Shown here: positions 6,520 through 63,985 of the stretch, one piece after another
Layout of the letters: every line of letters starts with the position of its first letter
Position numbering within the stretch: position 1 is the first letter of the stretch
Source of the DNA: Arctopsyche grandis
Taxonomy: Eukaryota > Arthropoda > Insecta > Trichoptera > Hydropsychidae
Direction of reading: 5' to 3'
NCBI RefSeq assembly: GCF_051622035.1
Contig: NC_135361.1
Span: forward strand, 29,257,205 to 29,321,204
Length of the DNA stretch: 64,000 nt
The notes under the pieces: generated by a model
Database searches by the model: none
What the model was told of the DNA's origin: nothing
What the model saw: the letters and a program-made list of their open reading frames with translations, nothing else
Position numbers and translations under genes: made by a program

Positions 6520-6800
6520 CTAAAAGGTAAACACCAATGCGCCTTCCTGGCCAATTACAAACAATGCAGCATTTTTATTACACAAGTCGCTGAATTACGA
6601 AACACTGAAAACTCGAAATTAATGAGACATCTATGAATTGTACATTAATTATATTCAAATAGTGGTGACATAGAAGGTAAGAAGGTTTTTAGCCAATTTA
6701 ATAGGGAACCGTTTCGACAATGAAATCAGAAAAAATGGCAAACTCTGATAGGAAACGAACGACCTGGAGTCACAAATATCCAAGTCTGACCAGCAGCACT
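6520..6800 (-). repeat. tRNA-derived SINE, truncated
   Basis: Reverse copy starting with the 3' module (CACCAATGCGCCTTCCTGGC) and running through the body (CAAACTCTGATAGGAAACGA) to GACCAGCAG at ~6797; the tRNA-like head is missing. Confidence 0.75.
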
Positions 6801-25428: not shown

Positions 25429-28400
25429 ATGTGGTTCGAAATCATCCCCCCGGGCTTGATCATCGTAGGGGCTCTTTTTTTGCCAGCAGCCGTGATGAAT
25501 GTCATGCACAGCACCGTCATCAAAACTGTGATTATAATAATACATTTCCCACTTTTTCCATCACACATAATCCCTATTTCTATTTCCAAGGTATTCAAAA
25601 GTGAGAGTGATGTTCAAGTATTGAATACCCCATCAAAATATGCTCGAAACCCAGTGCAAAATAAATTCTTTTTGGGTTATGTAATGCAGTAGTATTTGCG
25701 TTTTTCAGTACTTCAAGCCATTTCATATGAGAAAATAGTTATGAAGAAAGAATCTAATCACCATATTGCAAACATAAAAGAATTATGGATATCACAAAGG
25801 GTTCTTTTTTTTTTAATTTTACAATCCGAGTGGCCAATAGTTGTACACCGATTAACTACTGTGCCGTTTTCTTTAGTAGATCCTAATTCGCCTTGCTAGA
25901 CAATTAATTACAAACATGGCAGCATTTTTATTACATAAATCGCTGTATTTCGGAGGCTGAAGAACATGAAATGAACAATTAATTAATCTATGGATTTAGA
26001 CTTGTACATATTTTTTTACATATTGTACATAAATCAAATTCAGATATTTGTGACAGCGGGTAGGATGATTTTTGCCAATTTGATGGAGGAACCGTTTCAA
26101 CAATGACATCAGATAATTAGGCAAACTCTGAAAGGAAACGATCGATTTGAAGTCGCAAATATCCAAGTCTGACCAGCAGATTAGCACGGGATCGAACTCG
26201 GCAACCTCTCGGTGCTAAACATAAACGCAACGCATAAACGATTATATATTTTAGTAGTTTTAATGATATAGAAGTATTTAAGTGTTTTCAATATTTTTTC
26301 ACACCATAGTTCAAAAATCTGTTATACGATTTTCATTTATTTATGTTTGATTATTGATTTGTTTTGTCATTTCAGCCGTACCGAAGACACATCCACGACA
26401 CCTGGGACAGAATGTTGTATTTGCGAGATGAAAGAGTCGGAGACGGAAATGTGTACACTGTCAAAGTATGTATTTGAATAATTTCAATCAGATTTCAATA
26501 CACATGTCGGTACAACTGCCGAGTATTTTAGATTGTGAGCATTACATTTTAACAACAATGAAGAAGACGGAACTAGCTTTGGAAAAATACATTCATTAAT
26601 AGACTTCTTTTGTTTATTTTATATTATTGCAAGATATATTATAGTGTTGCGTAGGGGTGGGTGGAGGATCCAAAGAAAAGGCCAAAGTCGCTTCACAGCA
26701 TTTATTGGGTGATTAAGGAGATCCCACGCATTCCCGCAGTCAGTTCTGAGAACTCTAGCAGGATCCACTTACCGACCAGTAAGTCAATGCGGGGGTTTCC
26801 ATTGTTAGCCGACTTGCACTTAAGCCTGGAGATAATCCTCAAAACCAATTAAGACAGCTGCTCCTTTTTCGCATACGTTACAATATTCTAAACATAGCAT
26901 TACTAAACTAGAAATCCTTGGCGGTAGTTATTTAGGGTAGTGATCTAGGGTTTGTTTGGATTAGCTACAATTTTTATACCCGCCTTCTATTGGATTTCTA
27001 AATTATTCTGGGCTGGAAATATTGAAATGACGTCAGCACTCAAAGGGTTAAGATATTAAATTTCGCGGAGCAAATCCATTCATGTTATATATTTATATAA
27101 ATATATTCTTCAGCGTTATTTTATATAAAATACAATTCCAAATTACCATTTGTACCGACGACAGTTTGCAGTTTTACAAGTTTTATTCGCGAGTCGTTGA
27201 TATTTGACAGTTAACTTCCTGCGTTCCTCGCAAATTATAATATTTTACAATCAGTATTATTACTTCAAGTGAAAAATTAAGTTTGTTTTATTTTTTACAT
27301 ATATACCAGGAAGGCCTTACAGGTAAACACCAATGCGCCATCCTGGCCAATTACAATGCAGCATTTTTATTACAAGTCGTTGAATTACAAGACACTGAAA
27401 AACTCGCCAATTAACGAGACATCTATGAATTGTACACAAATTTTATTGTACATTAATCATACTTCAAATAGTGGTGACATAAGTTGAATATATGTAGAAT
27501 GTTTCATGAGTTCAAAGAAAGCCAACTTATTGTTTTTTTTTTACATTTTATTTACGCATAATTTAATCTAAAATGTTCTGCAAATCACATTATGTTCCAA
27601 CTAATTTATACTACAGTATTTGTTTGCTTGTGAATCTGTGCCAACTTTGCCATCAACTTCTACTTTTTCTACATTTGTGGACTTGGTAGTTTCTGCAGGA
27701 AGATCTTTATTTAAATTTCCTTTGTTCTGTTCCTCAATTGTTCCACTCCTTCCTCTCGGTCCCCGTCCTCCTCTTGGTCCTTTTCCTCCCCTCGGTCCGC
27801 TGCCTCCTCTCCCTGAACTTCCTCCACTCGCTCGTCTTTCTTCAATGCTGTCTTCACCGTTATGATCCGACATGTTTATCGATTTCGTCTTCCTTATTCT
27901 TCAAACCTATACAATGTAACCTTTAAAAGTACGGTGCCTAATATTTTGACGTTTAAATAGTACCGTTTGATAACTTGGATGTTATCTTATCACATTTCAC
28001 GATAAAAGTTGTTTTACTTTACTCATTTCCATCCACGTCGATTCGATTTAGCGATGTCGTTACTAAGAAGCACAGAATTGAAGAATGGAAGTGTTATGTC
28101 AGTTTGACAGTGGGGTGAGGAGAGTGGGAAGGGCTGCCTGAGCAGCATTTACAAGACTTGTAAATTAATGTAAAATAAATTACACGACATATGTATGTCA
28201 AAACGACATTTAATATCAAATTAACATCTCTAAAATAACCCAATCAGGGTTCGTCCGGCAAATCAAACGTCAAAAGGGCTGCCAGTACCAATAATACAAT
28301 TTGACGTTTCAGTGAAATCATAACCAGTTGCATTTTCACTGGGTATAGTTCAATGAAATCATATCCAATTACTTTTTCACTGGCCCCTCTCAGTGAGATT

Positions 28401-29816: not shown

Positions 29817-31049
29817 TCACTTATTATTCAACACTCTCAATCTGGAATTGATAAAATCCCAATCGACATAAGCTCCGATGACTCTCCGCACATTCTGATC
29901 AGTGTCGCTGTACTCTGTACGACCATGTAGCAATCTCCTATTATCGAAACACAGCATCTCCCCTTCGGACATTTTATAATGAGCCGACTCCTCGTGTATC
30001 AGATCGGTGAAAATCTTCAAAGACTCGTACCACGGCTTGACTCCGTCGACAGACACGTCCAGGTGACTTCCACGTTGAGGCGTGGAGTAGTTGATTCTGG
30101 CCACGTCTCCGTTCTTGTCCAAACAAATCACCGGCGATCTGTACATGCTGTGGAACTTGTTCCCGTCTTCTTCCCCGTAATCTTCCCATTCGACTTGTAC
30201 GTCGGTCAGCATCTGATAGTTTGCCGGTTTGTTTCTTCTGATTTGATCAGCGACGTGCAGTCCATCGCATAGCAGGTTTTCCCCACCTGAACTGTTCGAT
30301 TGGGTGATGCAGTGCAGCAGATTAGTTCCGGGTTTGTATTCGTAGTACGGTAAGTCTGTGTGTAGTTGCAAATTGCTCGCGAGATAAGCTACATTTGTAG
30401 TGCCCGGTTTTGCTTTGACTTCGAACTCTTCTCCGTAGTGGGTTCTTTTGATGAACTCGACACGACTTGCAAGTCTTCTGCAAGAGTCGGAAGACGACGG
30501 CACGTCGGTGACTAAAGCTACACCGTATATACTGAGAGATTCAAGCCATCGCTTCAACTCCTCGTTTTCGTTTATCAAGCAGTCGTATTTGAACTTTTTG
30601 AATATTGAATCGAACTGATTTTTGCTCCATTGCTTCTTTTTCAGTTTGTAGACGTTTTCCGTGTAGTTTTTTCTGTCACTCTTGTTGAAGCTCCGTTCGT
30701 GCAACCATTTTAAATTGAAAGTGGAAAGATGTCCGTCGTCCCATTTGATTTCAATGTTGTCTTTTGTCAATTGTACGTCGGACGGTTTTGTGTTCACGTC
30801 AAAGTACTTCCAATTGATGATTCGACTTTTGGACTCGACGTGGAAGCACTTTTCGCACTGGCAGTTGTCTCGTAGCCACACGTGTGGAAAATCATGCTGT
30901 GAATTCTTCTCCTGTAGGTGGATGAAGTCTTGGCTCGTGTTTATGGTGGGTTTATCGTCACTCAACGGTCTCCGGAGTGTGTTGGTTCGCTTTGCAGTTG
31001 AAAGTATCGCTTTTGATATTGAACTTGAAAGCTTCTTGGTTAGAAACAT
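29817..31049 (-). CDS. Gamma-butyrobetaine / trimethyllysine dioxygenase family protein
   Basis: Fe(II)/2-oxoglutarate dioxygenase of carnitine biosynthesis. Single-exon frame of 410 residues, family length. N-terminal zinc domain: LRDNCQCEKCFH with C63, C65, C68 and, in WDDGHLSTF, H107, the four ligand positions of BBOX1. Catalytic jelly roll: H230 and D232 in HTDLPYYEYKPG, distal H375 in LLHGRTEYSD, with RRVIGAYVDW near the end. The N-terminus (MFLTKKLSSSISKAILSTAK) is basic and acid-free, which suggests mitochondrial import; that fits trimethyllysine dioxygenase but does not prove it. BBOX1 and TMLHE cannot be told apart here. Convergent with NDUFA1, 461 bp between stops. The absence of introns is unusual for this window and could reflect intron loss or an old retrocopy that stayed intact. 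Confidence 0.88.
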   Translation of the reverse strand: MFLTKKLSSSISKAILSTAKRTNTLRRPLSDDKPTINTSQDFIHLQEKNSQHDFPHVWLRDNCQCEKCFHVESKSRIINWKYFDVNTKPSDVQLTKDNIEIKWDDGHLSTFNLKWLHERSFNKSDRKNYTENVYKLKKKQWSKNQFDSIFKKFKYDCLINENEELKRWLESLSIYGVALVTDVPSSSDSCRRLASRVEFIKRTHYGEEFEVKAKPGTTNVAYLASNLQLHTDLPYYEYKPGTNLLHCITQSNSSGGENLLCDGLHVADQIRRNKPANYQMLTDVQVEWEDYGEEDGNKFHSMYRSPVICLDKNGDVARINYSTPQRGSHLDVSVDGVKPWYESLKIFTDLIHEESAHYKMSEGEMLCFDNRRLLHGRTEYSDTDQNVRRVIGAYVDWDFINSRLRVLNNK

Positions 31050-31375
31050 CTCTCTGGGTGAACGTACGGATGTCGTCTGCGTTCATTTTTTGTACTTTGC
31101 TCTCTCATTAAGTGGCTATCATTTAAATTTATCATGCTAAGTATTTGTTTATACACTTTTTTTATGCTGGCACAGTCGTATGATTATTTTGAAACTAGTT
31201 TTTAATTGTTTATTGAATTTTTTGCGTGTTTATTATATGTAAATTAATGAGGTTTGGTTTATCAAAAAATATTTATCATATAGGTATATATAATATCGCC
31301 ATTATGTGTGTCTGTGTATAATATAATAGTCGTTTCGATTCGACATACATATTTTATTTTATTTTATTTTACAAA

Positions 31376-32639: not shown

Positions 32640-33540
32640 ATAATAACAAACTAATTTTGACCTGGGAGACGCCATATATGTTAAATGAGTATTTTTAAAA
32701 ACAGAAACATATTGTCCATGACCATAGGAACTACTACAGGTTGCCCAAGGCGACACCTGTGGCCAAATTTATGTACATTCGTGCCAAATACCACCATTAC
32801 ACACAATGATGAAACACAAAACATGAGTTGAAAACACAGTGCGTCAACCCCTGTCACACAACCCTTCCACTGCGGAATCCGCCATAGAAGCTCGGTCATA
32901 TGTAGATGTTCCTCTTCCCAATTCATCGAGCAAAACTAAAGAGTTGATTGCAGGGCACCTCAATATTGCTGCTGCTTCACTCAATTCAACCACAAAAGTC
33001 GACTGTCATCGTCATCATCCAAGCTTTCAAGTATTCCAGCGATGACTGCCAAACTGCACTCTGCAGTCTTTGCAAAACAGTCTTTTCATAATATAATTAC
33101 ATATCCAGTAATTGTCGATTTAGAATAATAAGAAACTGTATATAGTCTATTGTTGAGTAATAATAATAACATAATAATGGGTTCAATTCCAAGGTGAGTG
33201 CATGGAGTTGGTCTCCCCAAAGATGATTGAATTCATTTGCCTGGCATACAAATTGATTCAATTGGTGAAAGGCGTTAACTCTTATGGAATCGAGTTCCAT
33301 AAGTCATTTTATTATATTAAATATTATACAATAAGAAACAATATACCTGAAAAATCTAGCTTTTTTAGTTAACCGAGTACTTGAGATTAGCTTTGAAGCA
33401 AACAAGCTTATCAAATAAATCGAATCAAGTACATATATTGTTATGGAACACTTTATTTTTCTTGTAACACTTATTGTGTAATCGAAACTAACATTTCAAT
33501 TTAATCAATGAGGAAAAATATTAAATTTCTGATAAATTAT
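32640..33540. other. Intergenic; no gene recognised
   Basis: Contains a short segment (~32735-32800, CAAGGCGACACCTGTGGCC) that resembles 19110-19150 inverted, so at least part is repeat. No ORF with recognisable content. Confidence 0.5.
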
Positions 33541-33560
33541 TTTATTTTATTTTATAAAGA

Positions 33561-33998
33561 TATATAACAGAAGGCCTAACAAGTAAACCCAAATGCGCCT
33601 TCCTAGACAATTAATTACAAACATTGCAGCATTTTTTATTACATAAATCGCTGTATTTCGAGAGGCTAAAGAACACGAAATTAACAACTAATGAATGAAT
33701 TAATTAATCCATAGACACATGTATGGATTTAGACTTGTACATACATGTTTACATATTGTACATAATTCAAATTCAGATATTTGTGACATAGTGGGTGGGA
33801 TGATTTTTGCCAATTTGATGGAGGAACTGTTTCAACAATGAAATCAGATAAATTGGCAAACTATGATAGGAAACCATCGACTTCACAAGTCACAAATATC
33901 CAAGTTTGAGCAGTAGTATTAAATATTAGCACGGGAACGAACCCAGGAACTTCTCGGTGCTAAACATAAACGCAAACGCCGAGCCATACTGCTGGATA
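33561..33998 (-). repeat. tRNA-derived SINE, full length
   Basis: Reverse copy from AACAGAAGGCCTAACAAG to CCATACTGCTGG. Body GGAACTGTTTCAACAATG, GGAAACCATCGACTTCACAA; head with GGGAACGAACCCAGGAAC and GGTGCTAAACATAAACGC. Same head type as 42263-42690. Confidence 0.85.
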
Positions 33999-35206: not shown

Positions 35207-36818
35207 CAGCAGCAGTCACATAAAACGGAACGCTTAAGCGAAACATGTTTTTGCGTGAAATTTCGGTAATCTTATATAAAACCAAAACCGAAAGTCATTT
35301 AAATGATAGGTTGTATCATAGTGCATTCGTGTAACACCAAACGTGAAAATAAAAGGTGATAAAGATGAGTTGGGGAGAAATTTAATGGAGGGCAGATTTT
35401 ACGACCGTGCGTTGACTTCACGGTTAAATGAAATTTGAAATGAAAATAGCACTATACATATACATTTTTAATTTTATTACAGTCACATATTATTATTTAC
35501 AACTTATAAAAAAGAAATTAATATTTTGTAGCGGCTCCTTTCGATTTTATAACTTCTTTTATTCGGTTTGGCATAGAATCTACTAAAGTTTTTAAATTTT
35601 CGATTGGGAGGTCTTCGTACCATATATTTTCTATTATTTCTTTCAACGATTTAAGAGTAGAAACATTGTTCTTCCTTATCCTGTACTTGATACACATCCA
35701 CAAATTTTCGATTGGATTTAAATCGGGACTATTGCCAGGTCATGGTAGTGTCTTTACACCCATTTCTTGTAAATAGTCCCGAAATTAAAAAAAAGTAAAA
35801 AAAAAATTTCAGTTTTTTGATTGAAATTTTATAATTTATATTCAATGCTATCAAATAAAATGAATACTCACCAATTTAGCTCGATGACAAGGGGCAGAGT
35901 CATCTTGAAAAATTATATCATCGGAATATGAAAGGTGGTTTTCCATCGATGGGACAAAGCTTTCTTCTAAAATTTTTTTATATTTTTTTCCATCGATGGC
36001 ACCTTGTAGAAACTCCAATTGTCCAATGTTATGGTACGAAAAGCATCCCCAGACCATTTGACTTGGAAGATCCTTAACAGTTTTAAGGGTACAATTTTCA
36101 TTATACCTTTCGCCAACTTTCCTTCGGACATACGGAAAACCATCAGGACTATAGAGGTTAAACTTTGATTCGTCGGAAAGTATCACTCGTTGCCAATCTG
36201 ATGGACTCCAATTTTCATGTGCTTTCGCCCATTCCAATCGATTGTTTTTCATTCTCTTGGTTAGTAATGGGTTTTTTGCAGCTTTCCGACCGTACAGTCC
36301 AGCTTCTCTGAGTCGCCTTCTTACTGTTGAGTCGCTGATTTCCATGGAAAATTGTGAAGATACATCTGTTCTTAATTCTACAGCAGTTTTGAATCGCTGC
36401 TGTAAAGATAATCTGGTTATTACACGGTCTTGCCTCTCCGATGTGCATCTTTTCAGTCCGGTCCCCTTCTTACGATCAAAACTTCCAGATTCTCTTTTTT
36501 TTTCCAGTAATCTCGAAACAGTCGATATAGAACATCCCATTTTCTTGGAAATTGACCGAAAGGAAAATCCTGAACTCGCCAATGTCGCGATTTTTACACT
36601 CTTCTGCAATGATAACTGAGCTCGTTTTTTCATGTTGACGTGTTAAAATTCGAATTTGATGCTTTCTCCTCAAAAACCCACACTAAACTGAACTCAAATC
36701 TTAGAAAACAATCACATTTAGAATATTTGGTCGTTAAAAACCCTACACATAAAGGGATAATCCTTTAATGGCCTCGAAGTCGTAAAATTCACAAGCGTTC
36801 CGTTTTATGTGACTGCCG

Positions 36819-36929: not shown

Positions 36930-37352
36930 CAGGTGTACAGCCCTCTTAAGCTTCTGCCTAGCACCGAGAGGCGCCGGGTTCGATCCCATGAGCTGATCTC
37001 GATTGAAAATATTTTTTCTGAGTAGTGCTGCTGGTCAGTCTTGGATGTTTCTGCTCCAGGTCGATCGTTTCCTATCAGAGTTTGCCAGTTTCTCTGATTT
37101 CATTGTTGAAACGGTTCCCGATTAAAATTGGCTAAAACCTTCCTACCTACTATGTCACCACTATTTGAGTATGATTAATGTGCAATAAAATATATGTACA
37201 ATTCATAGATATCTCGTTAATTTGCGAGTTTTCAGTGTCTCATAATTCAGCGACTTGTGTAAATAAAAACGCTGCATTGTTTGTAATTGGCCAGGAAGGC
37301 GCATTGGTTTTTAGTTTACCTGTAAGGCCTTCCTGGTATATATTGTAAAAAA
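36930..37352 (+). repeat. tRNA-derived SINE, full length
   Basis: Head TGCCTAGCACCGAGAGGCGC with B box GGTTCGATCCC, body CTCCAGGTCGATCGTTTCCT and CATTGTTGAAACGGTTCC, 3' module CCAGGAAGGCGCATTGG...GGCCTTCCTGGTATA, then an A-rich tail. Confidence 0.88.
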
Positions 37353-37400
37353 TAAATAAATATGTACATATGTATAAGGTGGAACAATTGAAATGAATTA

Positions 37401-38046: not shown

Positions 38047-41000
38047 ATGACTTCTTTCAAGCTGGTCATTTGCCGTAAGTACACGCAATTTGAATACACA
38101 TTTTCCTATCTTTCCACGGTTTGCAATAATAACATTTGTACGTTACATTACAGTCTTTAGCGTGATATGGCTAAAATTGGCGTGTGGCGAGGAACATCAA
38201 GTACATTTGACAGAAAAATTTGCAATACAATACTCCGATGAGACGCCTGGTTTATATTTGATCTCAAAAAAAGGTTCAGATTCATTTCTACCGACGACAT
38301 TAGCAAGAATCATTTCAATTCAGTGCAATGTAATTTTTTCTCCTGTGCAGGTTCGGAAGTAGAGACGGTCGCAAATTTGACACCTGAATTGGATGAATAC
38401 CACACATCGATAGAGAAAGCTTCTGGTATTGTAAAATTTACCTTCGCCAACGATTTAACGCTGAAAGTGGCTGTGGAAGAATCTTTGGATGATATTTCAA
38501 TTGAAATACACATGACGGCTAGTCAAAATCAGAGACTTTCGATATGCCTCCCACTCGGTATGTTATCATTGTTATAATGTTATAATTAAAACAGTGGTGT
38601 TATCTAGTTTCTATAGCAATGAGTACACATATATAATTACATCATAATTCATTAGAAAAAATTGTATTTTAAAAATATCCTCTAGTAATCCTTGCACTGT
38701 ATAAACAAGCATATGAAGACATGGAATTACATATCATATATGTATATGCATTTGTAATGGTTTGGTGATTACTGATCACAAAGCGCTCGCCCAAAAGCCA
38801 AAAACGGAACATCTGGCAGCTGAAAAGTCCATCATACTAACGAGAACTCGAGTACCAAATATTCTGTATTCACGATTTTCATGGCAAAATAATCTTTTGG
38901 GCGATCGCAATGTGACTAATAATCCAATTACCATATGTAATATCGCTATTCTGTGTGTCTGTGTGTCTATGTATCTGCGATAACGCTCGCTGTACTATAA
39001 GGTAATTGGATTATTAGTCACATTGAGGTGGTCACAAAGACAATTATTGCCATGAAAATCGCGTATACGCAATATTTAGCACTCAAGTTCTCGTTAGTAT
39101 GATAGTTATTGTTAGTATGATGGACTTTTCGGCTCCCAGATGTTCCGTTATAAAGATTTTTGGACGAGCGCTTTGTGACCAATAATCACCAAACCGTACT
39201 ATAATAGTCATTTCGATTCGACATACATATGTACGTCACAGCTAAAACAATGCTAACAAAAAAGTCTCTGAGTATTTACCGCCATCTATTTAAAATTTAT
39301 TTAATTAATCAATTAATTTTCTATCGGTGTTTTATATGTAGGTAGGTAGGTGGTTTTTACTATTTATTTTTTTCATATTAAACATTTAAATATAAATATT
39401 ATATTAAATATATTTGAAAGGTATTTGAAAAAATTCAAATACAGGCAGACATATTTCTTTTAATTTTTTTATTTAATAACTTAATATGCCAACACCCATG
39501 CGATGATATTTCATTGGGTACAACATTAGTATTAAATAACACTATTATAATACATATATACATAAATATCTATAGGACAGGAGGTTATGTTGTGACCGTA
39601 ACCCTTCCTATGGAAACTCGTAGTAGATAACAGAGGAAATTTATTTTCTTCAGTATACAAGTTTATTGTCAGTACAGAAAATTCACGAGGAAGTGGGCTA
39701 GTTGCCTGCTTCAGGGGAAAGCTGCTGTACTGGTTTATATATGGGCACGGTGATGTCATCTTGTTCTCGGGGATTCCTCCGGGTTCAAGGGTTTCCTTTG
39801 TGTGGGTGTGCCACAAGGTTGCTTGATGGGTATTCATCTGGAGCGAGTCGAATCGCCTTTATCAGTGGTCTGGATATGGGTGAGGTGATGTCATCTCGTT
39901 CTCGAAGATTCTTCCAGGCTCAAGGGTATCCTTTGTGTGGTCGCGTGCCTTGTGTTTTATGGGGTAATTGGATTTATGCTATTTCGGTTGTTCCCTTGAA
40001 CTCAAGGTTTGTTTATCTGGAGCGAATATATGATTGCTTTGGCTTTGCTGAAAGCTCGTACAAGCTGTATTGTATTTCTACAATCTCAGTCAAACTTGAT
40101 GATAGCGTTGAATTAAAGTGTGTTAATACCTATTTACAAATTTAGGTGAAAGTAACTGGTACGGAGGACCTCAGCAAAAGCACCAATATTGGCCTATAGA
40201 AAAACTTGTCTTTTCTGAATATTCCTACCTGCCCAAGGAAGCCGACAATGCTGCCATAACAGAACCTTACTGGTTATCTTCATCGGGGTTGATGATCTAC
40301 ATACATCCAACGGTGCCACTGTTCGTCGATCAAAACAGCTTGTACAATGACACTGTTTGCTTCATCGCCGAAGTAAAACCACCGTATTCCACCAGACGTG
40401 CTAAAAACATACTTGCCTTCACAATTGCATGGACGGATAATGTCAGGAAGACGCACGAATACGCCGTGAAACACTTCCTAAAGAAGCCTTCAGGTCGTCC
40501 GGATCGAAGGATGGTTCAGCACCCCATCTGGTCCACTTGGGCCGAGTATAAGCGGCCTATTAACGAATCTATCGTCATGGAGTTTGCTGAAAAGATCATC
40601 GAGTACGGTTTTAACAACAGCCAACTTGAAATTGACGACCTGTGGGAGACTTGCTACGGCTCGTTAAACGTCGACGAAGAGAAGTTTCCCGATCTCAGGA
40701 AGTTTAATTTGAAATTGAAAGAGATGGGCTTCCGAGTCACCTTTTGGATACATCCGTTCATAAATAACGATTGTGAGCCGTGGTATTCGGAAGCTATGCA
40801 AAAAGGGTACGTTGAATTGTTTGGTGGATTTCAGGAAGTATGCAAATCTCAAGAGAGTTTATTTTTTGTTTTGTTTCAGATATTTGGTTAAGAATGAGGA
40901 GGGAAAAGTGGATACTGCTTGGTGGAATAGCGACGGACCAACTGCTGCTTATGTTGATTTTACTAATGAAAGAGCCAAAAAATGGTGGTCTGACAGGTTG

Positions 41001-44000
41001 AAACATTTGCAAACGACCTATGCTATTGACAGTTTCAAATTTGATGCTGGAGAAACGAGCTGGTCTCCACAGGTTAGTCTTTGCTTTTCTTCAGATACAC
41101 TTAACCCTTTGAGTGCTGACATCTTTTCCGTTGAAAGCCCGCCACGCTGAAAATTTCGCCAACATTACCAACTAGAATTATTTAGAAAACCAATAGAAAG
41201 CAGGTATAAAAATTGTAGCTAATCCAAACAAACCCTAGATAACCACCGCCGAGGATTTCAAATTTTGTAAAGGTGTGTTTAGACTCCCTAATATATCTTG
41301 CAACAATATAAAATAAACAAAAGTAGTGTAGTCAATGAATGTATTTTTCCAAGACTAGTTCCATCTTCTTCATTGTTGTTAAAATGTAATGCTCACAATC
41401 TAAATGCCAAGCCACAATCTAAAATACTCAACAGTTAGGGATTTCCATCGAGAAATTCTGCTATGGTTATAAATTCAGAAATTCCGGTGTAAACCAGTCT
41501 TTGTAAACATTTACACGGATTACAACACCCATGTTCAATGCATTTTTTTTTCAATGCTACCTTTATAGGTTTAGCAGGTACATAATTGTTTACTTTGTAA
41601 ATGTAAAATTTACAACGCCTATGGGCTTTTTTCAGGCCCATGAACATGTCAGCAAAACGCCGATCGGCGTTGGTCAGCATTCAAAGGGTTAAGAGAGTAA
41701 TGGTTGCTGACAATATGCCAGGAAGTATACGAAAGAAGCGCCAGTTCACTGGTTTGTTAGAATGACTAACTCAATTTATTGATACTTCGTATGCATATGG
41801 ATAAAGGGGTCTACGTGACGAGACAGAATGTTAAATTACAGAAAACACAAATATCGGAAGGCAAAGATCGAAAATCGAAAGATCAAAAAAAAAATGGTGC
41901 ATGGTAAACGGTACATACTCACGTACATACTCACTTCATTTGCGCGAGCAGGGTACAACAGGAACAAGAGGAACAGGCTTTTCCTCCCGTATTCTGCGCG
42001 CGCACATTAATACGGGAGGAAAAGCCTGTTCCTCTTGTTCCTGTTGTATCCTGCTCGCGCAAATTAAGTGAGTATGTACCGTTTACCATGCACCATTTTT
42101 TTTTGATCTTTCGACTTAAGATCTTTCGATTTTCGATCTTTGCCTACCGATATTTGCGTTTTCTGTAATTTAACATGCTGTCTCGTCACAGAGACCGGGA
42201 TAAAGTAATAAGAAATATGTATTTATACATAATTGGAGCCATTATAGCAGTTATGTATCATACAGCACCGAGAGGTTACCGGGTTCGATCCCGTGCTAAT
42301 CTTTAATACTGCTGGTCAGACTTGGATATTTGTGACTCCAAGTCGATCGTCTCTTATCAGAGTTTGCCAATTTATCTGATTTCATTGTTGAAACGGTTCC
42401 TCCATCAAATTGGCATAAACCATCCTGCCCGCTATGTCACAATTATCTGAATTTGATTTATGTACAATATATTAATATGTATGAACAAGTCTAAATCCAT
42501 AGATTTCTCTATGGATTAATTAATTAATTAATTAATTGTTAATTTCGTGTTCACCAGCCTTCGAAATACTGCGATTTATGTAATAAAAAATGCTGCAATG
42601 TTTGTAATTAATTGTCTATGAAGGCGCATTGGGGTCTACTTGTTAGGCCTTCCTGGTATATATCTATGTAAAATAAAATAAAATAAAAATAAAAATGTGT
42701 AAATACATATGTATTTCCATGATAAGTTCAATTAATTGCATAGCAGAAGAGAATATTTCCACCACAACGAGAGGGTGAATATAGAAATTGGAATATCTAT
42801 TTATGTATAGCAGCTGGTAGCTTGAATTTTAATGTTAAATGTTGTCATATACTGCTATCGATTAGTAGTGAACAAAAATTTCACTGTAGGTTCTCAAGTT
42901 TTCTGAGTAGGTTCCAAAAGATTATCATTAATGTAGCATTCTATCTCCATTCTGAAACATAGATCAATGAGTTTATTTTACTAATGCACTACATTATCTA
43001 AGGTACCAGTTCAAATAGGAGATGTCAACACCCAACCATCCCACATAACTCAAAAGTACGTGGAAGAATGCGCCAAATTTGGACCAATGGTTGAGGTCAG
43101 AACTGGCCAAAGGTATACCAACATAATCACTTACAAATCTGAGATAACAAATTTAAATAATTGATTGTAAGGTTTGCTTTACTTGGACAGAACCCAAGAG
43201 CTGCCGATTTTCGTCAGAATGATAGACAAGGACTCGGAATGGAATTTCGAAAATGGACTACCTACACTCGTCACCACATTGCTGCAGATGAACATGAATG
43301 GCTATCCCTTAGTCCTGCCAGATATGATTGGAGGAAACGGTTATAATGAACCACCATCCAAAGAGATGTTCATCCGTTGGTTGCAAGCTAATACTTTCAT
43401 GCCCAGTTTGCAGTATTCGTACGTGCCGTGGGATTATGATAATGAGGCAAGTGGTGCTTTTTAGTAGTCGTAATAGACGTAAGAAACATTCTTTAATATA
43501 CAAAATGATTTCAGACTATTGAAATAAGTAGGGTGTTCACCGATTTGCATTCTGATTATACGTCAAAAATCATCGAGGCTTTGGATAAAGCTGTTGAGAA
43601 AGGATATCCGGTGAATCCACCTATTTGGTGGATCGATCCCACTGATCAAACAGCTCTCGGAATATGGGATGGTAGTTTAATTTAATGGTTGTGGCTATTT
43701 GCAGGTACTATATATGTGACAGGCGCAAAGCCTTCTGCGCATGCGCGTGAACTTATAATCCGATTATAATTTCTTACATTTAATGTATGCTAGACTTGTT
43801 TAATCAATCGTTCATTGTTTTAATCTTATATGTTTAATCAATCGTTCATACTACGTCACTTTACGAGTTCGAACTAAATTTTAAGAGGTTTAAAACAAAA
43901 TTTTATCAGTAAGCACGCTGACAGTGACAGTTCACGCGCATGCGCAGAAGGCTTTGCGCCTGTCGCAGATATAGTACCGGCAAATAGCCAATAATTCGCA

Positions 44001-44312
44001 GATGTAGTACCTGCAAATAGCCAATAATTTGCAGATATAGTACCTGCAAATAGCCACAACCTAATTTAATTTGTGTGTACATATTTTGCGATTGGTTATT
44101 TATATGATGATTTTTCTGTAGAGTATTTGCTCGGTGAAGATATATTGGTTGCTCCTGTGCTAGAAGAGGGATCCATCGCCAGAGATGTATATTTGCCAGA
44201 AGGAAAGTGGATGGCTGAAGGACAAAATGATAAAATCTATACCGGGCCACAGTGGATTCGGAATTATTCTGCACCGTTGAATGTTTTACCGTATTTTATA
44301 AAGTCGACGTGA
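38047..44312 (+). CDS. Secreted glycoside hydrolase family 31 glucosidase, MYORG-like
   Basis: Retaining alpha-glycosidase (MYORG prefers alpha-galactosides; the substrate here is unknown). Nine exons: 38047-38074, 38154-38273, 38351-38557, 40146-40806, 40880-41072, 43003-43112, 43191-43446, 43515-43671, 44122-44312; 640 residues, no frame break. Signal peptide MTSFKLVICLFSVIWLKLAC, so it looks secreted rather than a long type II membrane protein. Motifs: WYGGPQQKHQYWPIEKL, LEIDDLWETCYGSL, nucleophile D394 in FKFDAGE, acid/base D452 or D454 in FVRMIDKDSEW, LPDMIGGNGY, PWDYDNE and EYLLGEDILVAPVLEEG. Intron 7 has a GC donor (GAG|GCAAGT). Intron 3 holds MITEs, a Helitron and a solo LTR; intron 5 a piggyBac MITE, a foldback element and a SINE; intron 8 is mostly one MITE. 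The exon 2 donor (G|GTTCAG) is the weakest border. Confidence 0.9.
38759..38932 (+). mobile_element. hAT-type MITE
   Basis: 174 bp, ends GGTTTGGTGATTACTGATCAC and GTGACTAATAATCCAATTACC. The flanks TTTGTAAT / TATGTAAT are a near-identical 8-bp duplication. It stands just before the 5' end of the H1 Helitron copy in GH31 intron 3. Confidence 0.8.
38943..39529 (+). mobile_element. Helitron-like element, family H1, with nested MITE
   Basis: Starts TCGCTATTCTGTGTGTCTGT after A; 3' end GCGATGATATTTCATTGGG then TACAACATTAG before T (CTAG decayed to TTAG). A hAT-type MITE is inserted at 39001-39195. In GH31 intron 3. Confidence 0.75.
39001..39195 (-). mobile_element. hAT-type MITE, inverted copy
   Basis: Same family as 38759-38932 but in the other orientation, with the exact duplication TACTATAA on both sides (9 bp match, GTACTATAA). 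Two inverted copies only 70 bp apart could pair in the pre-mRNA. Confidence 0.85.
39571..40082 (-). mobile_element. Solo LTR fossil in GH31 intron 3
   Basis: Minus-strand LTR: starts TGTAGAAATACAATAC, has TATATAAACC (~39735) and CAATAAACTTG (~39665) and ends near TCCTAT. Same family as 44893-45570 with the shared core GTGGGCTAGTTGCCTGCTTC. A 4-5 bp duplication is likely but its register is ambiguous. Ends only 63 bp before exon 4. Confidence 0.75.
41105..41688 (+). mobile_element. piggyBac-type MITE, complete
   Basis: 584 bp, exactly flanked by TTAA (41101-41104, 41689-41692), with 16-bp inverted ends CCCTTTGAGTGCTGAC / GTCAGCATTCAAAGGG. No transposase; a decayed ORF piece on the minus strand (MLTNADRRFADMFMGLKKAH) is not recognised. 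In GH31 intron 5. Confidence 0.88.
41807..42197. mobile_element. hAT-like foldback element, near-perfect hairpin
   Basis: 391 bp made of two inverted arms of about 185 bp joined at a short centre (~41990-42010, CTGCGCGCGCAC). Arm landmarks: GTGACGAGACAG, ACAGGAACAAGAGGAACAGG. Exact 8-bp duplication GGATAAAG (41799-41806 and 42198-42205). Arms differ at only a handful of positions, so it is young. In GH31 intron 5. Confidence 0.9.
42263..42690 (+). repeat. tRNA-derived SINE, full length
   Basis: Head CAGCACCGAGAGGTTACCG with B box GGTTCGATCCC, CTGCTGG closure, body GTGACTCCAAGTCGATCG and CATTGTTGAAACGGTTCC, 3' module GAAGGCGCATTGGGG...GGCCTTCCTGGTATA and (AAAAT)n tail. In GH31 intron 5. Confidence 0.9.
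43687..44061. mobile_element. MITE with 9-bp duplication filling GH31 intron 8
   Basis: 375 bp with 24-bp inverted ends GGTTGTGGCTATTTGCAGGT and exact 9-bp duplication TAATTTAAT (43678-43686, 44062-44070), the size used by Mutator-like elements. The right part has three tandem copies of a ~35-bp unit (GCAAATAGCCAATAATTCGC). A shorter copy is at 59052-59189. Confidence 0.88.
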
Positions 44313-46700: not shown

Positions 46701-47211
46701 TTAATGTATAGTATATATATATATTTTTATAGTGTATATATATATGTGTGTATATATATATTTTTACAAAAAATAGTAACCCTATATTAAGTCCAACATA
46801 TGTATTTATGTATAGTATATTGGAAGCAAATATTTAATAATGACAGGTATATTTTACATACATGTACATATGTGTAATTTCATATAATGAAACCTTTAAA
46901 TGCCCAATTTGAGAATATATTCAAAATGATTTACAATGTTAATATACCTAATTTATATCGTAAATGACCCCCGTAAAATGATTATTTATTCATAAGCAGG
47001 TGTAAAATAATTCTACACACATTTTTCCTGTAAAAGTTTCACATGCAAAAGATATACATAATTGAAGGAAATTGCTCTTAATGTGACACAGTTGGTGAGA
47101 GTTAATAGTATAATATACAAGTATATAAACAAACATTCATTGCATCCATAGCTTATTCTTCGCAGTGAATCACTTCAATTCAGTCCAATCGAATAGTATT
47201 CAAGCTGAAAT
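45967..47211. other. AT-rich intergenic DNA upstream of the odorant receptor
   Basis: Apart from the hAT C-terminal piece near 46545-46640 and TA microsatellites at 46720-46760, nothing is recognised. A basal promoter for the receptor is expected near the end, but I see no clear TATA/initiator pair. Confidence 0.5.
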
Positions 47212-50200
47212 ATGAAGAACTTGAAATACTTCCCGTTTCATTACAGACTATTGCGAATAGCCGGCCTCGGCGAGTTTCATGATCCGCATCACGGAAACTT
47301 TAACAACTTTTCCAAACCGGTTTATATTATCTACTCGGTGATTCAACACATATTTTGGACTGTCCTATTCCCAATCGCTCTATGGATGGAAGTCCCACGT
47401 CTCGCCGGAGATCTGGATCGTCTCACGCTCAACTTGACGTTCAGCATTACATTCGTATTGACTTATGTCAAGTTGTACATAATAATGGTGAAGAATCGGG
47501 ACATCCAACAGGTGGTTTACACGTTGGAAGAGGACTTTTTCAACTTCAGCCAGAGCAAGTTGATAAGCGACAAAACGGTCAAGATGAGTAAGTGTATCAC
47601 ATACTCCGTATTGATCTTCGCAAACTCCACAGTAGTCGGTTTGATCATCGGCGGCATCATACAAGCGGGGTGGAATTCGACAAGTTCCAGCTTTCACACT
47701 AGGAAGTTTCCAGTACCCGTGTATTTGCCGCATGAAATCTCATCAGATTTTATATATTCTGTGACGTTCGTTTATCAAATCTTTGGAATCGTCTGGTGTG
47801 GAAATTTGGTCGTGCTGATCAACACTTTCATAAATGCAATCATGGTTCACGTTGCAGGCCGTCTTGCGAATTTGAGGCTCGTCATAGAAAACATCAGACC
47901 GATCTGTATATCGAAACTGCACTCTAGAATACTCAGCAAGAATGATTTTAAAGACGAGGTCATCATGAATAGAGATTTTAACATTGACGAATTGGTCGGT
48001 AGCGTGGGTCGTGGGAGGATTGAGAGAAATGTTTTGACCCATTACGGACAGGATTTCCTGGACAAGTACATGTATAAGTGCATGAAAGAGTGTATTATAC
48101 ATCACAAGTCTATAATTTCGTAAGTGATGAAGTAATAATATGAAATTTATGCAAATTAATAATACTAAGCAACAAAAAAAAATACTGGAGCGGAGACTAA
48201 TCAATCTATCAAGTCATTTAACAACGGTTTTTGTTGGCTTCTTCTCGTTTATGATATAAGCGTTTAAAAAAAAACACAATTTTTGGATTTTGCAGTCTTT
48301 AGCTCAAAATCTTGTATTGCTGTGCCAAAAGTGAGTATTGGAATCCATAGTCGGGTGTTTTTCACTTCTCTTCTTCTTTTGGTGTCATGTCAGGTCCCCC
48401 CGACGTTGACTACCACCTGTGAGTATGTGTCCCTGTCCTTAGCAGTTCTAAATAGTGCCTCGACTGTACTAATCCCTGTCCAGTCTCGTATGTTCCGAAG
48501 CCAGGAGATCTGTCTTCTACCCACACCTCTTTGACCCTCTATTTTTCCTTTTATGATTAAGTGCAGTAGACTGTACTTTTCACCTCTAAGTATGTACATG
48601 CTCCAGATATGATACCTTTTGGACCTTGATATCAGTCAGCAACTGTCTATCTACTCTTGCTCTTTGGAGCACATTTTCATTGCTAATCTTTAGGGTCCAT
48701 GACTCAACTTCATTATAAAAACACCGACCAAACATAGCACCTAACCATTCTTTGCCGAAGTTTCAAATTGAGGTTATCATTGCAGAAAATACTTCTCATT
48801 TTATTGAATGCTGCACGAGCGGCTTCTATTCTGCATTTGACTTCACTATTGATTTATTAATGTCATAGATGTAGAATAATAACCTAGATATGCCATTACA
48901 TACAAATTTCGTTGGAGATCTTGTCGCCACTAACTGAGGGGTGCGGGGGGTTTAACTAGCGGGGAAGTGGTGAAAAAAAGGAAGAAAAGCAGCGGTTGGC
49001 AGTGGTCAGCAACCAGTTTATGTATACGTACATGCACTGAAGTTTTATTTTGTTTATAACTTTATTTTATTGGACACTCCGCGTGACAGTAAACCAAACT
49101 AATAAAGCCATATTAAGAAAAAAATATTTAGCTATACACACTATATTAAACTACAAATGTATGTTTCTATAATAAAACCATCATTAACTATTACAATATT
49201 TAAACATTAGTAACTTCCACAAGGATCAATTTTAAAGCTGACACTTAAATATTTAATTCATTGTTTGTAGTTTTAAACTTAATGTCGATTTCTGAATTTC
49301 CTTCAGTGCCAACAAGATATACGCGTGCATTTAGTGACACCTGTGGCAGAGGTTGTCGACCGCTGTTCCATCAGTGCATAGAAGACTAAATACATCGCGC
49401 CGATATTTCATTATATGTTAAAATACTACTACATATAATTGAAGACATTATATATTAATTCTTACTTAAGATATGTGATGCCATCCGCCTTTTTATGTTT
49501 TCTTGAGTAATTGTAGCACAATTTCATTGAACACGTTGGCATTTTCGAAAAATGTCAATCGACCTTCCTACTTATGTAGAAGCTAACTAGCTACTGAGAG
49601 AGAGTGTACATGATCTGTACTTTTTTTTGTGTATGCATGGTCCAACAGGGTCATCGGCTTAGAGTGTCAGGGCGTATCTATGGTATTCTATATCTATGAT
49701 TAATGCTTTAAAATACCTATGTATAATTAATTATCTAGAGAATTTTAAAAGTAAAAAAAAATATTTAATATTATTTAAAGAATATATAACTTAGTAAAGA
49801 TTGATTAGTCTCCGCTCCGGTGAGAAAAAAATGTGATTTTTATTGCTTAGTGTAATTTAATATGTTTTAGATGTGTTAATAAGATTGAAAATATATATAA
49901 TATTGGATTCTTGACGCATGCTATCAACAATCTGAGTATAATTTGTCATGTGATGATACAAATAACCGAGGTATGTATTAAAAATTATGACGGATGTACT
50001 TTTGGATACAAATTAATCGATGAATTCGCTTGTTGCAGAACAACTTCCTTTCAATCCGCTTCGGTACAGCCATCGCTCTATTTTTCACGGTAGTGAGCGA
50101 GTTTTTGGTTCAATGTTATGCTGGCAACGAATTAACATTACAGGTACGTCATTATTTATGTACATAAGTAATAAATGATTAATTATAATGCTATTGTATT

Positions 50201-61900: not shown

Positions 61901-63150
61901 TTAAATCAAACAATAAAATGTTTACTATTAGATTGGCCATGTTTAAGCGGTTTATGTATATTACAAATACTGAGCGAAGCCGGGTAAAAACACTAGTATA
62001 TTTTAAATTCATCGATTGATTTGAATTTAATATTGTTATATGTACATAATTTGCAATTCAATATGTTCATTGATTTTGCGACAAGATTCAATGTATATTA
62101 CAAATACTGAGCGAAGCCGGGTAAAAACACTAGTATATTTTAAATTCATCGATTGATTTGAATTTAATATTGTTATATGTACATAATTTGCAATTCAATA
62201 TGTTCATTGATTTTGCGACAAGATTCAAAATTATATATCCACTATTTACATACGTACATACATATAAACGATTACAGCCAATTTGAAATATAGTACTAAA
62301 ATTGAGATCGATTCACAACGAAATCACAATGGAAACGTACAATCATTGTTGTGGAATCTAATTAAAAGGAACCGATTTGGCGAATACGTTTCAAATCCAA
62401 AACACAATGAATACAGGAATTGGAAGCCTCACCTGTTCCAATTTCCGCACCAACGAATCGAATGAAGCATCCTCGCGGTTTTCAATGCTATCGTCCAAAC
62501 ACTTCCAAGCGTGCTTTCTAAACGAATCGTCACCCCCGTTTGCAGCATTTTTCCGATTTTCAATATCGGCGAACAAATCATTAGACGGTTTGGAACTCTT
62601 GTGGCTGCTCTTGTTGTTCTCGGTGAGGACAGAAGTGTCTCTATCGACGTACGGCAAAGAGTTGTCTCTGTAGAAGTCGTTCGGTGGGGATGACGGATTG
62701 TCCCCGTTGTCAAAGTCGACGTGTCTATCTCGGATGAACCGTGGAGGTAGAAGATCCGGAGACGTCGAAGTCAAACTGCCGTTGTGAAGATGCTTCTTGG
62801 CTTTCTTATCGCCGGTCGACATGTAGAATTGGTTGCTGAACGAGAATTGAATCTGCGGAGTCGTCGGAGATGAGAACTCTGTTTGGTGAGACCTGGTGTC
62901 GGGCAAGGAGAGACGTTTGGATTGTTTCTTCTCTACTTGTTGATTTTTGCGAGGCCGTTTGGACTCTTCTTTGGTGTGGTCTTCCTTGATAGGACCGAGC
63001 GATCTCCTGGCTAGAAATTCGGCGAAGGCCCTCTTGTACTCCTCCGTCCTTATCGGGTCTTCGTAGTGAAGTGATCTCGGCGAGGAGTCGTCCACGTCCG
63101 GAGATACCATGACGGCCTGGGAATCGCTGCACCGACGATTTGAACGGTCC
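52908..63150 (-). CDS. TEX14-like inactive protein kinase, 5' partial
   Basis: Twelve minus-strand exons, one continuous frame of ~1485 codons: 62433-63150, 60546-60787, 60359-60476, 60008-60275, 59823-59916, 58684-58787, 58410-58603, 57400-58337, 57063-57328, 56033-56146, 55214-55953, 52908-53570. Exons 2-7 form a kinase-like fold: WRFAKWNNTPVTLREYP where the ATP-site Lys is expected, HHSNMLLLMGLFYE, YLHTNRYVHTSVSSHSI in place of HRDxKxxN, LCNFE in place of DFG, WQAPELFDD (APE kept), DVYSLCLVLWECI. All three catalytic motifs are degenerate, so it is a pseudokinase. Flanks are long, Ser/Thr/Asp-rich and probably disordered. The order and kinase remnants suggest TEX14, a germ-cell intercellular-bridge protein; its N-terminal ankyrin repeats would lie right of the window. 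Family assignment is tentative, gene structure firm except the 57063 donor (GTTAAT). A stop there would shorten the product. Confidence 0.78.
53796..54509 (+). mobile_element. pogo/Tigger-like transposon, deletion derivative
   Basis: 714 bp, ends CAGTAGAACCTCCATTATCC and GGATAATCGAGGTTCTACTG, flanked by TA. Contains an N-terminal transposase piece (53992-54189: VLERFLSNKYGAGTSTISDI KKKQSEK, a CENP-B/jerky-type HTH) and a last segment (SIRHLAASKRKANFKQKSIM EFL). The DDE catalytic region is missing. In the last intron of the pseudokinase gene. Confidence 0.85.
54591..55116 (-). mobile_element. Non-autonomous hAT element with transposase remnant
   Basis: 526 bp; ends CAGCGGTTTCCAAACT / AGTTTGGAAGCCGCTG; exact 8-bp duplication CTATATGG (54583-54590, 55117-55124). 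The minus-strand ORF 54825-55022 encodes a C-terminal hAT piece, YLCETGFSALAAMKTKYRTR and EKELRVALSILPPRFDKLC, like ZBED5/SCAND3-type transposases. In the last pseudokinase intron. Confidence 0.88.
56240..57035 (+). mobile_element. LINE reverse-transcriptase fragment in a pseudokinase intron
   Basis: Plus-strand frames read SNLRYTNDTNLIANSEEEMA (a decayed F-A-D-D box), CLQHESRILGLGMNRAKTKI and, further on, RLVRTLVFPVFIYGVETWTI. This is the palm-to-thumb region of an RTE-like LINE, broken by several stops and shifts. Antisense to the host gene, between exons 57063-57328 and 56033-56146. Confidence 0.8.
58843..59399 (+). mobile_element. LINE 3' fragment (CR1/L2-like) split by a MITE
   Basis: Left piece FYSIISVLNKFNVQDLGKIQ, KLQNKAMRGILNVGRLKSI; right piece YYTRNKNNLVVGRVRKKKTG and FHRGVLMYNALPECARSSKK. 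The MITE at 59052-59189 separates them. Same family as 23640-23945. In a pseudokinase intron, antisense. Confidence 0.8.
59052..59189. mobile_element. MITE with 9-bp duplication, short copy
   Basis: 138 bp with ends GGTTGTGGCTATTTGCAGGT and mirror, three tandem units of AATAGCC...TTATTCGCAGATACAGTACC. Flanks ATAAGAAAT / GTAATAAAT match at seven of nine positions. Same family as 43687-44061. Confidence 0.85.
59414..59702 (-). mobile_element. LTR-like fossil
   Basis: Minus strand: TGTAGTGTTGGAATTG at 59702, AATAAACAACATG near 59505, LTR end near GTCCTGAACA (59434), then ~20 bp that may be the start of an internal region. Both outer sides read TATATATG (59406-59413, 59703-59710). In a pseudokinase intron next to the LINE end. 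Confidence 0.55.
61200..61797 (+). mobile_element. Non-autonomous Helitron-like element, family H4
   Basis: 3' end: hairpin CCCGTTGAAATCAACGGG (61765-61782), then CGCAACATTACATAG before T. The body shares GACCTTTGACCAATTAC, ATTCTGACCAATGGGTG and GACGTCAGGCCAAGCG with 17041-17640 inverted. 5' border approximate. In pseudokinase intron 1. Confidence 0.65.
61800..61996 (+). mobile_element. Non-autonomous Helitron-like element, family H3
   Basis: Begins near CTAATATATAATTTCGAAAG, ends GAGCGAAGCCGGGTAAAAAC ACTAG before T. About 195 bp, AT-rich, no ORF of note. Immediately follows the H4 element. Confidence 0.6.
61954..62227. repeat. 137-bp perfect tandem duplication
   Basis: 61954-62090 and 62091-62227 are the same by eye from ATGTATATTACAAATACTGA to TTTTGCGACAAGATTCA. 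It spans the 3' end of the H3 element, so there are two such ends in a row. In pseudokinase intron 1. Confidence 0.9.
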
Positions 63151-63582: not shown

Positions 63583-63985
63583 TATACCAGGAAGGCTTAA
63601 CCAGGTAGACCCCAATGCGCCTTCCTGGACAATTAAGGGTGACTTGTAAAACACTGTGGTATACTTGTATATTAAAATAAATAAATAAATAAAATTAATT
63701 AAAAACATTGCAGCATTTTTATTACATAAATCTGAAGAGACTGAAGAACACGAAATTAACAATTAATTAATTAATGAATTAATCCATAGAGACATCTATG
63801 GATTTAGACTTTGTACATAATTTTTACAAATTATACACACAATAAATACAGAAGATTTGTGACAACAGGAAAAATGATTTTTTGCCTATTTTGAGGAGCC
63901 GTTTCAACAATGATGAGGTAAAATTGGCAAACTCTGATAAGAAACAATTGATTTGGAGTCACAAATACCCCCAAATATAATCTAA
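63583..63985 (-). repeat. tRNA-derived SINE, reverse copy with inserted A-tailed piece
   Basis: Starts ATACCAGGAAGGCTTAACC, continues GACCCCAATGCGCCTTCCTG, then ~70 bp of other sequence ending (AAAT)n (63636-63700), then resumes with AACATTGCAGCATTTTTAT and runs to GGAGTCACAAATA near the window end. The head lies beyond or is lost. Confidence 0.75.

Follow-up and report, generated by a model that had tools for sequence, protein, structure and literature searches.

A near-perfect foldback element in a GH31 intron of Arctopsyche grandis belongs to a high-copy MITE family probably mobilised by a MULE transposase

The foldback element at positions 41807-42197 of the 64,000-nt stretch of Arctopsyche grandis DNA analysed here (the window) is one copy of a high-copy non-autonomous foldback MITE family. 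We consider it probable that this MITE was moved in trans, most likely by a MULE transposase, and that its hairpin is a property of the DNA. Overall, the family is an ordinary but large one. What was a single-locus puzzle becomes in this way a family spread over the genome, open to annotation and masking, and the likely superfamily shifts from hAT, the parent implied by an earlier note on this sequence, to a MULE-like type with a 9-bp target-site duplication (TSD).

The window copy lies on the + strand with its GGG-end first and is 391 nt long, the family consensus being 405 nt. It is a near-perfect palindrome, nearly all of the 391 nt forming one inverted repeat about a 15-nt centre or loop (CTGCGCGCGCACATT, 41994-42008). 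The left arm (41807-41993, + strand) begins with the G-type end GGGTCTACGTGACGAG, and the right arm (42009-42197, + strand) carries the C-type end, which reads CGGTCTCTGTGACGAG in reverse complement. The inverted repeat comes in three pieces, 41808-41884 with 42120-42196 (94%), 41886-41925 with 42065-42104 (98%) and 41923-41993 with 42009-42079 (97%). Folded as RNA, the element reaches a minimum free energy of -286.2 kcal/mol; 100 dinucleotide shuffles average -87.8 (sd 5.3), and none was as stable (0/100; z = -37.5). These pieces and the fold bear out the limits and the palindromic nature that the earlier note had given to the element. Its exact 8-bp duplication is also present: the direct repeat GGATAAAG abuts both ends on the + strand, at 41799-41806 and 42198-42205, and is atypical of a family whose norm is 9 bp. 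Of 173 ungapped arm positions 9 are mismatched, to which indels are added; the left arm carries a 12-bp tandem duplication (GTACATACTCAC twice) and is devoid of about 14 nt present in the family consensus. The interior contains nothing but the arms and the 15-nt centre, with no transposase gene inside, and over the element no stop-to-stop frame of at least 100 aa is found on either strand, the longest on the + strand being 86 aa. No other foldback copy lies inside the 64-kb window.

The location within an intron of a GH31 gene, as proposed in the earlier note, is confirmed by Pfam matches on both sides and by the splice sites. The GH31 TIM barrel domain PF01055 flanks the element on the + strand: upstream, one match covers 40127-40891 (profile 14-105) and another, in the ORF 40764-41147 (residues 39-100), covers profile 103-161. 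The exon next to the intron runs over 40878-41072 (+ strand; PF01055 positions 103-161), its start being approximate. As read from the sequence, the intron extends over 41073-43002 (+ strand, GT..AG), from the donor CAG/GTTAGT at 41072/41073 to the in-frame acceptor CTAAG/GTACC at 43002/43003, with the phase 0 join SWSPQ/VPVQIGD (slashes mark the junctions). Downstream coding sequence occupies 43003-43461 (+ strand) with approximate exon limits: a short exon starts at 43003 and is followed by stops at about 43162-43170, hence a small intron, and then by PF01055 positions 239-288 within 43171-43461. The GH31 C-terminal domain PF21365 lies further downstream (44070-44309). In the Pfam search, neither 42985-43161 nor 43509-43682 matched GH31, so that the former is attributed to the gene by its frame and by the next exon. 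The same intron holds other dispersed repeats, among them one at 42264-42686, 66 bp from the foldback element, with copies at 33537-33961, 25875-26216, 63693-63970, 37028-37360 and 6637-6796. Elsewhere in the window, a 263-aa open frame with PF01498 (Tc3-type transposase helix-turn-helix) at 35851-36642 (- strand) marks a Tc1/mariner relic or copy, and the sequence at 61954-62228 is perfectly duplicated head to tail, the period being 137 bp. We also noted a gamma-butyrobetaine-hydroxylase-like dioxygenase (TauD, GBBH-like_N) at 29817-31082 (- strand) and an insect odorant receptor (7tm_6) at 47209-48123 (+ strand).

The family was searched for in the 475.7-Mb assembly of 189 contigs. A likeness search with the element, a procedure that yields only minimum copy numbers, gave 1,333 candidates, of which 40 were scored. 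These lie on contigs C1-C13 and match over nearly the whole length; identity to the window copy ranges over 92.6-96.4% among the other 39. A degenerate 18-nt end pattern matched the genome 4,323 times, as opposed to 0 for the reversed control, providing ends for roughly 2,160 elements, and both canonical ends stand 376-406 nt apart at 512 places genome-wide (control 0). The sibling copies that the earlier note had considered possible exist in such numbers. The 405-nt consensus, computed from the 39 fetched copies and the window, ends in GGGTCTACGTGACGAG (G-type) and CGGTCTCCGTGACGAG (C-type) when read inward. The window copy shows 97.7% identity to this 40-copy consensus, with 9 substitutions over 391 aligned bases (2.3%), and its nearest relative among the copies fetched, L009, is 1.3% apart (5/390). 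The variant of its C-type end, taken as a 20-nt pattern, has 30 genome matches, 29 of them with the last base of the window copy. Heterotypic near-full-length copies are unevenly distributed between the assembly strands (290 vs 222; 245 vs 190; 28 vs 18), which has no obvious meaning, the choice of strand being arbitrary, and may stem from the way the search scans.

A perfect 9-bp TSD surrounds 25 of the 40 copies; it shows one mismatch in 6/40 and two in 2/40, and the window copy is among the other 7/40, being the sole one of the 40 with a perfect 8-bp TSD. Since the 39 copies are the best matches to the window, a second sample was drawn independently of likeness to it, from chromosome 1, where 20 places were picked among the first 100 listed end-pattern matches, nearly all with two ends listed. 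One of them (L071), whose two ends lie on the same strand and make no pair, was left out; the 19 delimited copies measure 185-406 nt, several of the shorter ones being internal deletions of the consensus. In 11/19 of these copies the 9-bp TSD is perfect or has a single mismatch; 8/19 have no good one. The insertion at L094 is flanked by the 9-bp TSD CTAGAAAAA, and the paralogous sites L095 and L096 are empty of the element. What characterises MITEs is found in this family: a consensus below 800 bp with TIRs and defined ends, a TSD of constant length (9 bp with at most one mismatch in 31/40 copies, and in 11/19 of the second sample) and a high copy number, as seen from the end matches and the near-full-length places. 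Searching the literature for 16-mers of the family ends returned no matching paper and, as far as the text searched goes, the family may be undescribed.

The two ends of the element are mostly of different kinds in the copies observed. Near-full-length copies combine a G-type with a C-type end at 512 places, against 10 places with two G-type and 15 with two C-type ends (512 heterotypic vs 25; homotypic patterns are palindromic and listed on both strands, and each place was counted once). In the chromosome-1 sample, the G/G copies L076 (322 nt) and L078 (350 nt) show no TSD, with 6 and 9 mismatches out of 9, respectively. This suggests that movement, or the transposase, prefers one end of each kind. 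Alternatively, heterotypic ends could be plainly inherited from an asymmetric founder.

Perfect palindromes can come from chimeric reads or local inversions, and on this general ground the element could be a product of the assembly, or of an inverted duplication made locally, and not mobile. We give practically no credence to this reading, which is refuted by the 512 two-ended places, the copies on C1-C13, the TSDs and the paralogous empty sites; the earlier note had named an assembly product among the things that would undo its proposal, and hundreds of dispersed copies, most of the sampled ones with TSDs, rule this out. A hAT MITE with an 8-bp duplication, as that note implied, is hardly credible either. 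It is favoured by the perfect 8-bp repeat around the window copy, but that copy is the only one in 40 to show it, the TSDs of its siblings being exactly 9 bp in 25/40, and the hAT parent was rejected on this length. Moreover, hAT ends start with CAG, unlike the ends GGGTCTAC and CGGTCTCC of this family. MULE TSDs, on the other hand, are described as 8-10 bp long and associated with long TIRs (>100 bp), TSDs of 8-9 bp being given for 14 families of Aedes (PMC5225508). The foldback family agrees with this description: most of its sampled copies have a 9-bp TSD, and its arms, at about 185-200 nt, also exceed 100 bp. Counting against it are the 8/19 chromosome-1 copies without a good 9-bp TSD and the 8-bp TSD of the window copy. 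Merlin elements have 8-9-bp TSDs, ends starting with GG and an IS1016-type transposase, and the same foldback MITE might belong to that superfamily instead: its ends begin with GGG and CGG, its TSD, mostly 9 bp and 8 bp in the window copy, is of a compatible length, and as no parent was found the sequence does not decide. We nevertheless regard Merlin as distinctly unlikely, since it is the Mutator/Foldback family Tm1 that is described as combining very long foldback arms with ends of two kinds. P-type TSDs are given as 7-8 bp (PMC5199201), and the P superfamily, with its Galileo-type foldback elements, was rejected on the 9 bp of this family. No autonomous parent with the family ends was found in the loci sampled, so it is by the length of its TSD and the style of its TIRs that the family is placed with the MULEs, whose transposase probably mobilised it.

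PF10551, the MULE domain, has 60 matches in the genome. Among 20 fetched loci, L055, L061 and L066 display a perfect 9-bp TSD at most 9 nt from the boundary of a long inverted repeat, in a search that tolerated shifts of 15 nt at most and where several other candidate repeats were of low complexity. L055, L057 and L066 (on C2) and L061 (on C13) associate the MULE domain with long inverted repeats, L057 with an 8-bp duplication, and the two ends of each of L055/L057 and L061 differ in their first bases. No autonomous element with the family ends occurs among these 20 of the 60 loci; at L058 and L062, family ends belong only to MITE copies contained there. The likeness between MITE and MULE termini (GGGT..AC..GAC) is no better than that obtained with shuffles, 551 of 2,000 being as good in the best case. 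The same end accompanied by a different interior was found at 11 exact places and at 33 when one mismatch was allowed (control 1). Six of the 11 exact places were fetched and none resembles an autonomous element, all being deletion or rearranged MITEs, with L088 a composite. The autonomous parent is either missing, outside the sample or too far diverged.

Tm1 of root-knot nematodes offers the closest comparison in architecture. It is reported as a Phantom-type MULE with 9-bp TSDs, foldback TIRs and MITE-like members, in which the terminal motif mostly differs from one end to the other (24/39 and 20/22 elements; PMC3169594). As far as that description goes, it shares with our family the TSD length, the long foldback repeats, the non-coding MITE-like members and the different ends (512 vs 25 here). 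However, its arms are described as tandem arrays with a unit of mostly 13-15 bp, whereas ours are largely unrepetitive and nearly the whole element is palindrome; the terminal motifs reported are unlike those of this family, and a transposase-bearing member is known in a group of low copy number, in contrast to our family, where ends run into the thousands and the search for a parent found none. Among insects, the Muta1-14 MULEs of Aedes aegypti are presented with TIRs above 100 bp in 12 of 14 families and with non-autonomous derivatives exceeding 300 for Muta1 and 200 for Muta5 (PMC5225508). They resemble the present family in their insect host, 8-9-bp TSDs, long TIRs and many non-autonomous derivatives, but in that account the derivatives share their ends with identified parents and mostly have varied interiors, while this family is made of one palindrome and its deletions, with no parent found. 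iMITEdb records 6,012 insect MITE families in 98 genomes, with MULE as one of 16 superfamilies (PMC5199201). Compared by description, its MITEs are like ours below 800 bp, with TIR and TSD, in high copy and often in or near genes. Galileo, a foldback element of the P superfamily in Drosophila (PMC4168063), is similar in foldback architecture and long inverted repeats, and differs in the P-type TSD of 7-8 bp against 9 bp here.

The few differences between the arms had led the earlier note to call the element young. This argument does not hold: arm mismatch averages 4.9% in 47 other near-full-length copies, compared with 5.2% in the window copy and 2.2% in the consensus, and as near-identical arms are a family trait, arm likeness cannot date an insertion. 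Relative to the consensus, the 19 chromosome-1 copies diverge by 2.9% on average (range 1.0-6.3%), from which the family appears moderately recent and not the product of a single fresh event. Arm changes were counted over 189 consensus pairs in 48 copies, leaving out copies below 375 nt (11/19 of the chromosome-1 sample) and setting aside 341 gap cells. Among 321 changed cells, 284 are one-sided and 37 two-sided (30 standard pairs and 7 not), where 16.2 two-sided changes would be expected if the two columns were independent. Two columns shared by subfamilies account for 19 of the 30 standard-pair cells, namely pair 17/431 (CG to AT) in 13 copies and pair 106/343 in 6 copies. Selection for pairing finds no support in this count beyond these shared subfamily changes. 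The pattern is one of decay after insertion together with a few symmetric subfamily changes, not of steady compensation for an RNA stem, and leaves little sign of selection. When one G-type and one C-type end are required, the centre lies forward at 435 places and inverted at 46, a ratio that is approximate as the two patterns differ somewhat in gap width. Inverted centres were met in 3 of 17 scorable chromosome-1 copies (L069 and L086 had no scorable centre and were left out) and in 0/40 best-match copies. Template switching between inverted-repeat arms is described as producing arm homogenisation and spacer inversion (PMC8604942). The shared two-sided changes and inverted centres fit such a switch at the DNA level.

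Could the hairpin nevertheless act as an RNA? The element might be a functional hairpin-RNA source, transcribed with the GH31 gene and giving Dicer-2 siRNAs that keep the MITE family or further targets in check, or undergoing ADAR editing. The idea is physically sound, as the predicted duplex is very stable and nearly continuous over about 185 bp and the element sits in the intron of a gene; processing of such an RNA by Dicer or ADAR would be possible. The excess of two-sided arm changes over independence (37 vs 16.2) also speaks in its favour. Yet the predominance of one-sided changes (284/321) and the origin of 19/30 two-sided standard pairs in two subfamily-shared columns leave little sign of pairing selection. 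With Rfam, the element gave nine matches, seven to miRNAs and two to plastid 3'UTRs. All of them fall on the palindrome, with both strands represented, and none attains the gathering score, the best reaching 41.9 of 70 bits. It is small-RNA production that defines hpRNAs. In Drosophila simulans, loci of this kind are reported to yield endo-siRNAs (PMC10317233), and the window element is like them only in its long inverted repeat giving a long RNA stem, its fold being a computed one. We therefore hold a function as hairpin-RNA source to be unlikely, and return to the hairpin as a trait of a DNA element.

We suppose that a transposase acting in trans, in all likelihood that of a MULE, would recognise a G-type end (GGGTCTAC...) together with a C-type end (CGGTCTCC...) and mobilise the element by cut-and-paste. 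The window copy would have inserted in the GH31 intron, where it would decay and be spliced out. The long hairpin would be a property of the DNA of the element, and occasional template switching between the arms would renew their likeness and flip the centre. If the gene is read through the element, a dsRNA of about 185 bp would form, on which action of Dicer-2 or ADAR is only possible. It could even be imagined that template switching keeps the family palindromic, that the obligatorily different ends are protected by the transposase, and that some 2,000 copies, many perhaps intronic, supply dsRNA for a siRNA response against a transposase source now missing from the assembly; we judge this combined scenario very unlikely. 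Should some intronic copies be transcribed, they would allow a clean test of dispersed foldback MITEs as an endogenous dsRNA source in an insect. The hundreds of near-full-length long hairpins are a natural set for counting arm homogenisation, spacer inversion and the two-end requirement.

Several odd copies deserve mention. By our own reading, in three of the six fetched (L089, L090 and L093) inverted flank sequence is copied beside an end, over a short length in L090. The composite L088 (C1:37732300-37734000) consists of a C-type end, then about 180 bp, then a complete MITE, the whole being enclosed by the 9-bp duplication ATATTACAT; the 180 bp match the left flank of the L094 insertion (C1:37747080-37747900), 15 kb away. 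In this single case it looks like flanking DNA was captured and moved with the element. Capture of flanking DNA is mentioned as a known habit of MULEs (Pack-MULEs, PMC5225508). Finally, L093 (C4:8518690-8518830) is a miniature of about 28 bp built from a pair of G-type ends. The sequences flanking it are likewise inverted relative to one another, which looks like flank DNA copied through a change of strand at the element's end.
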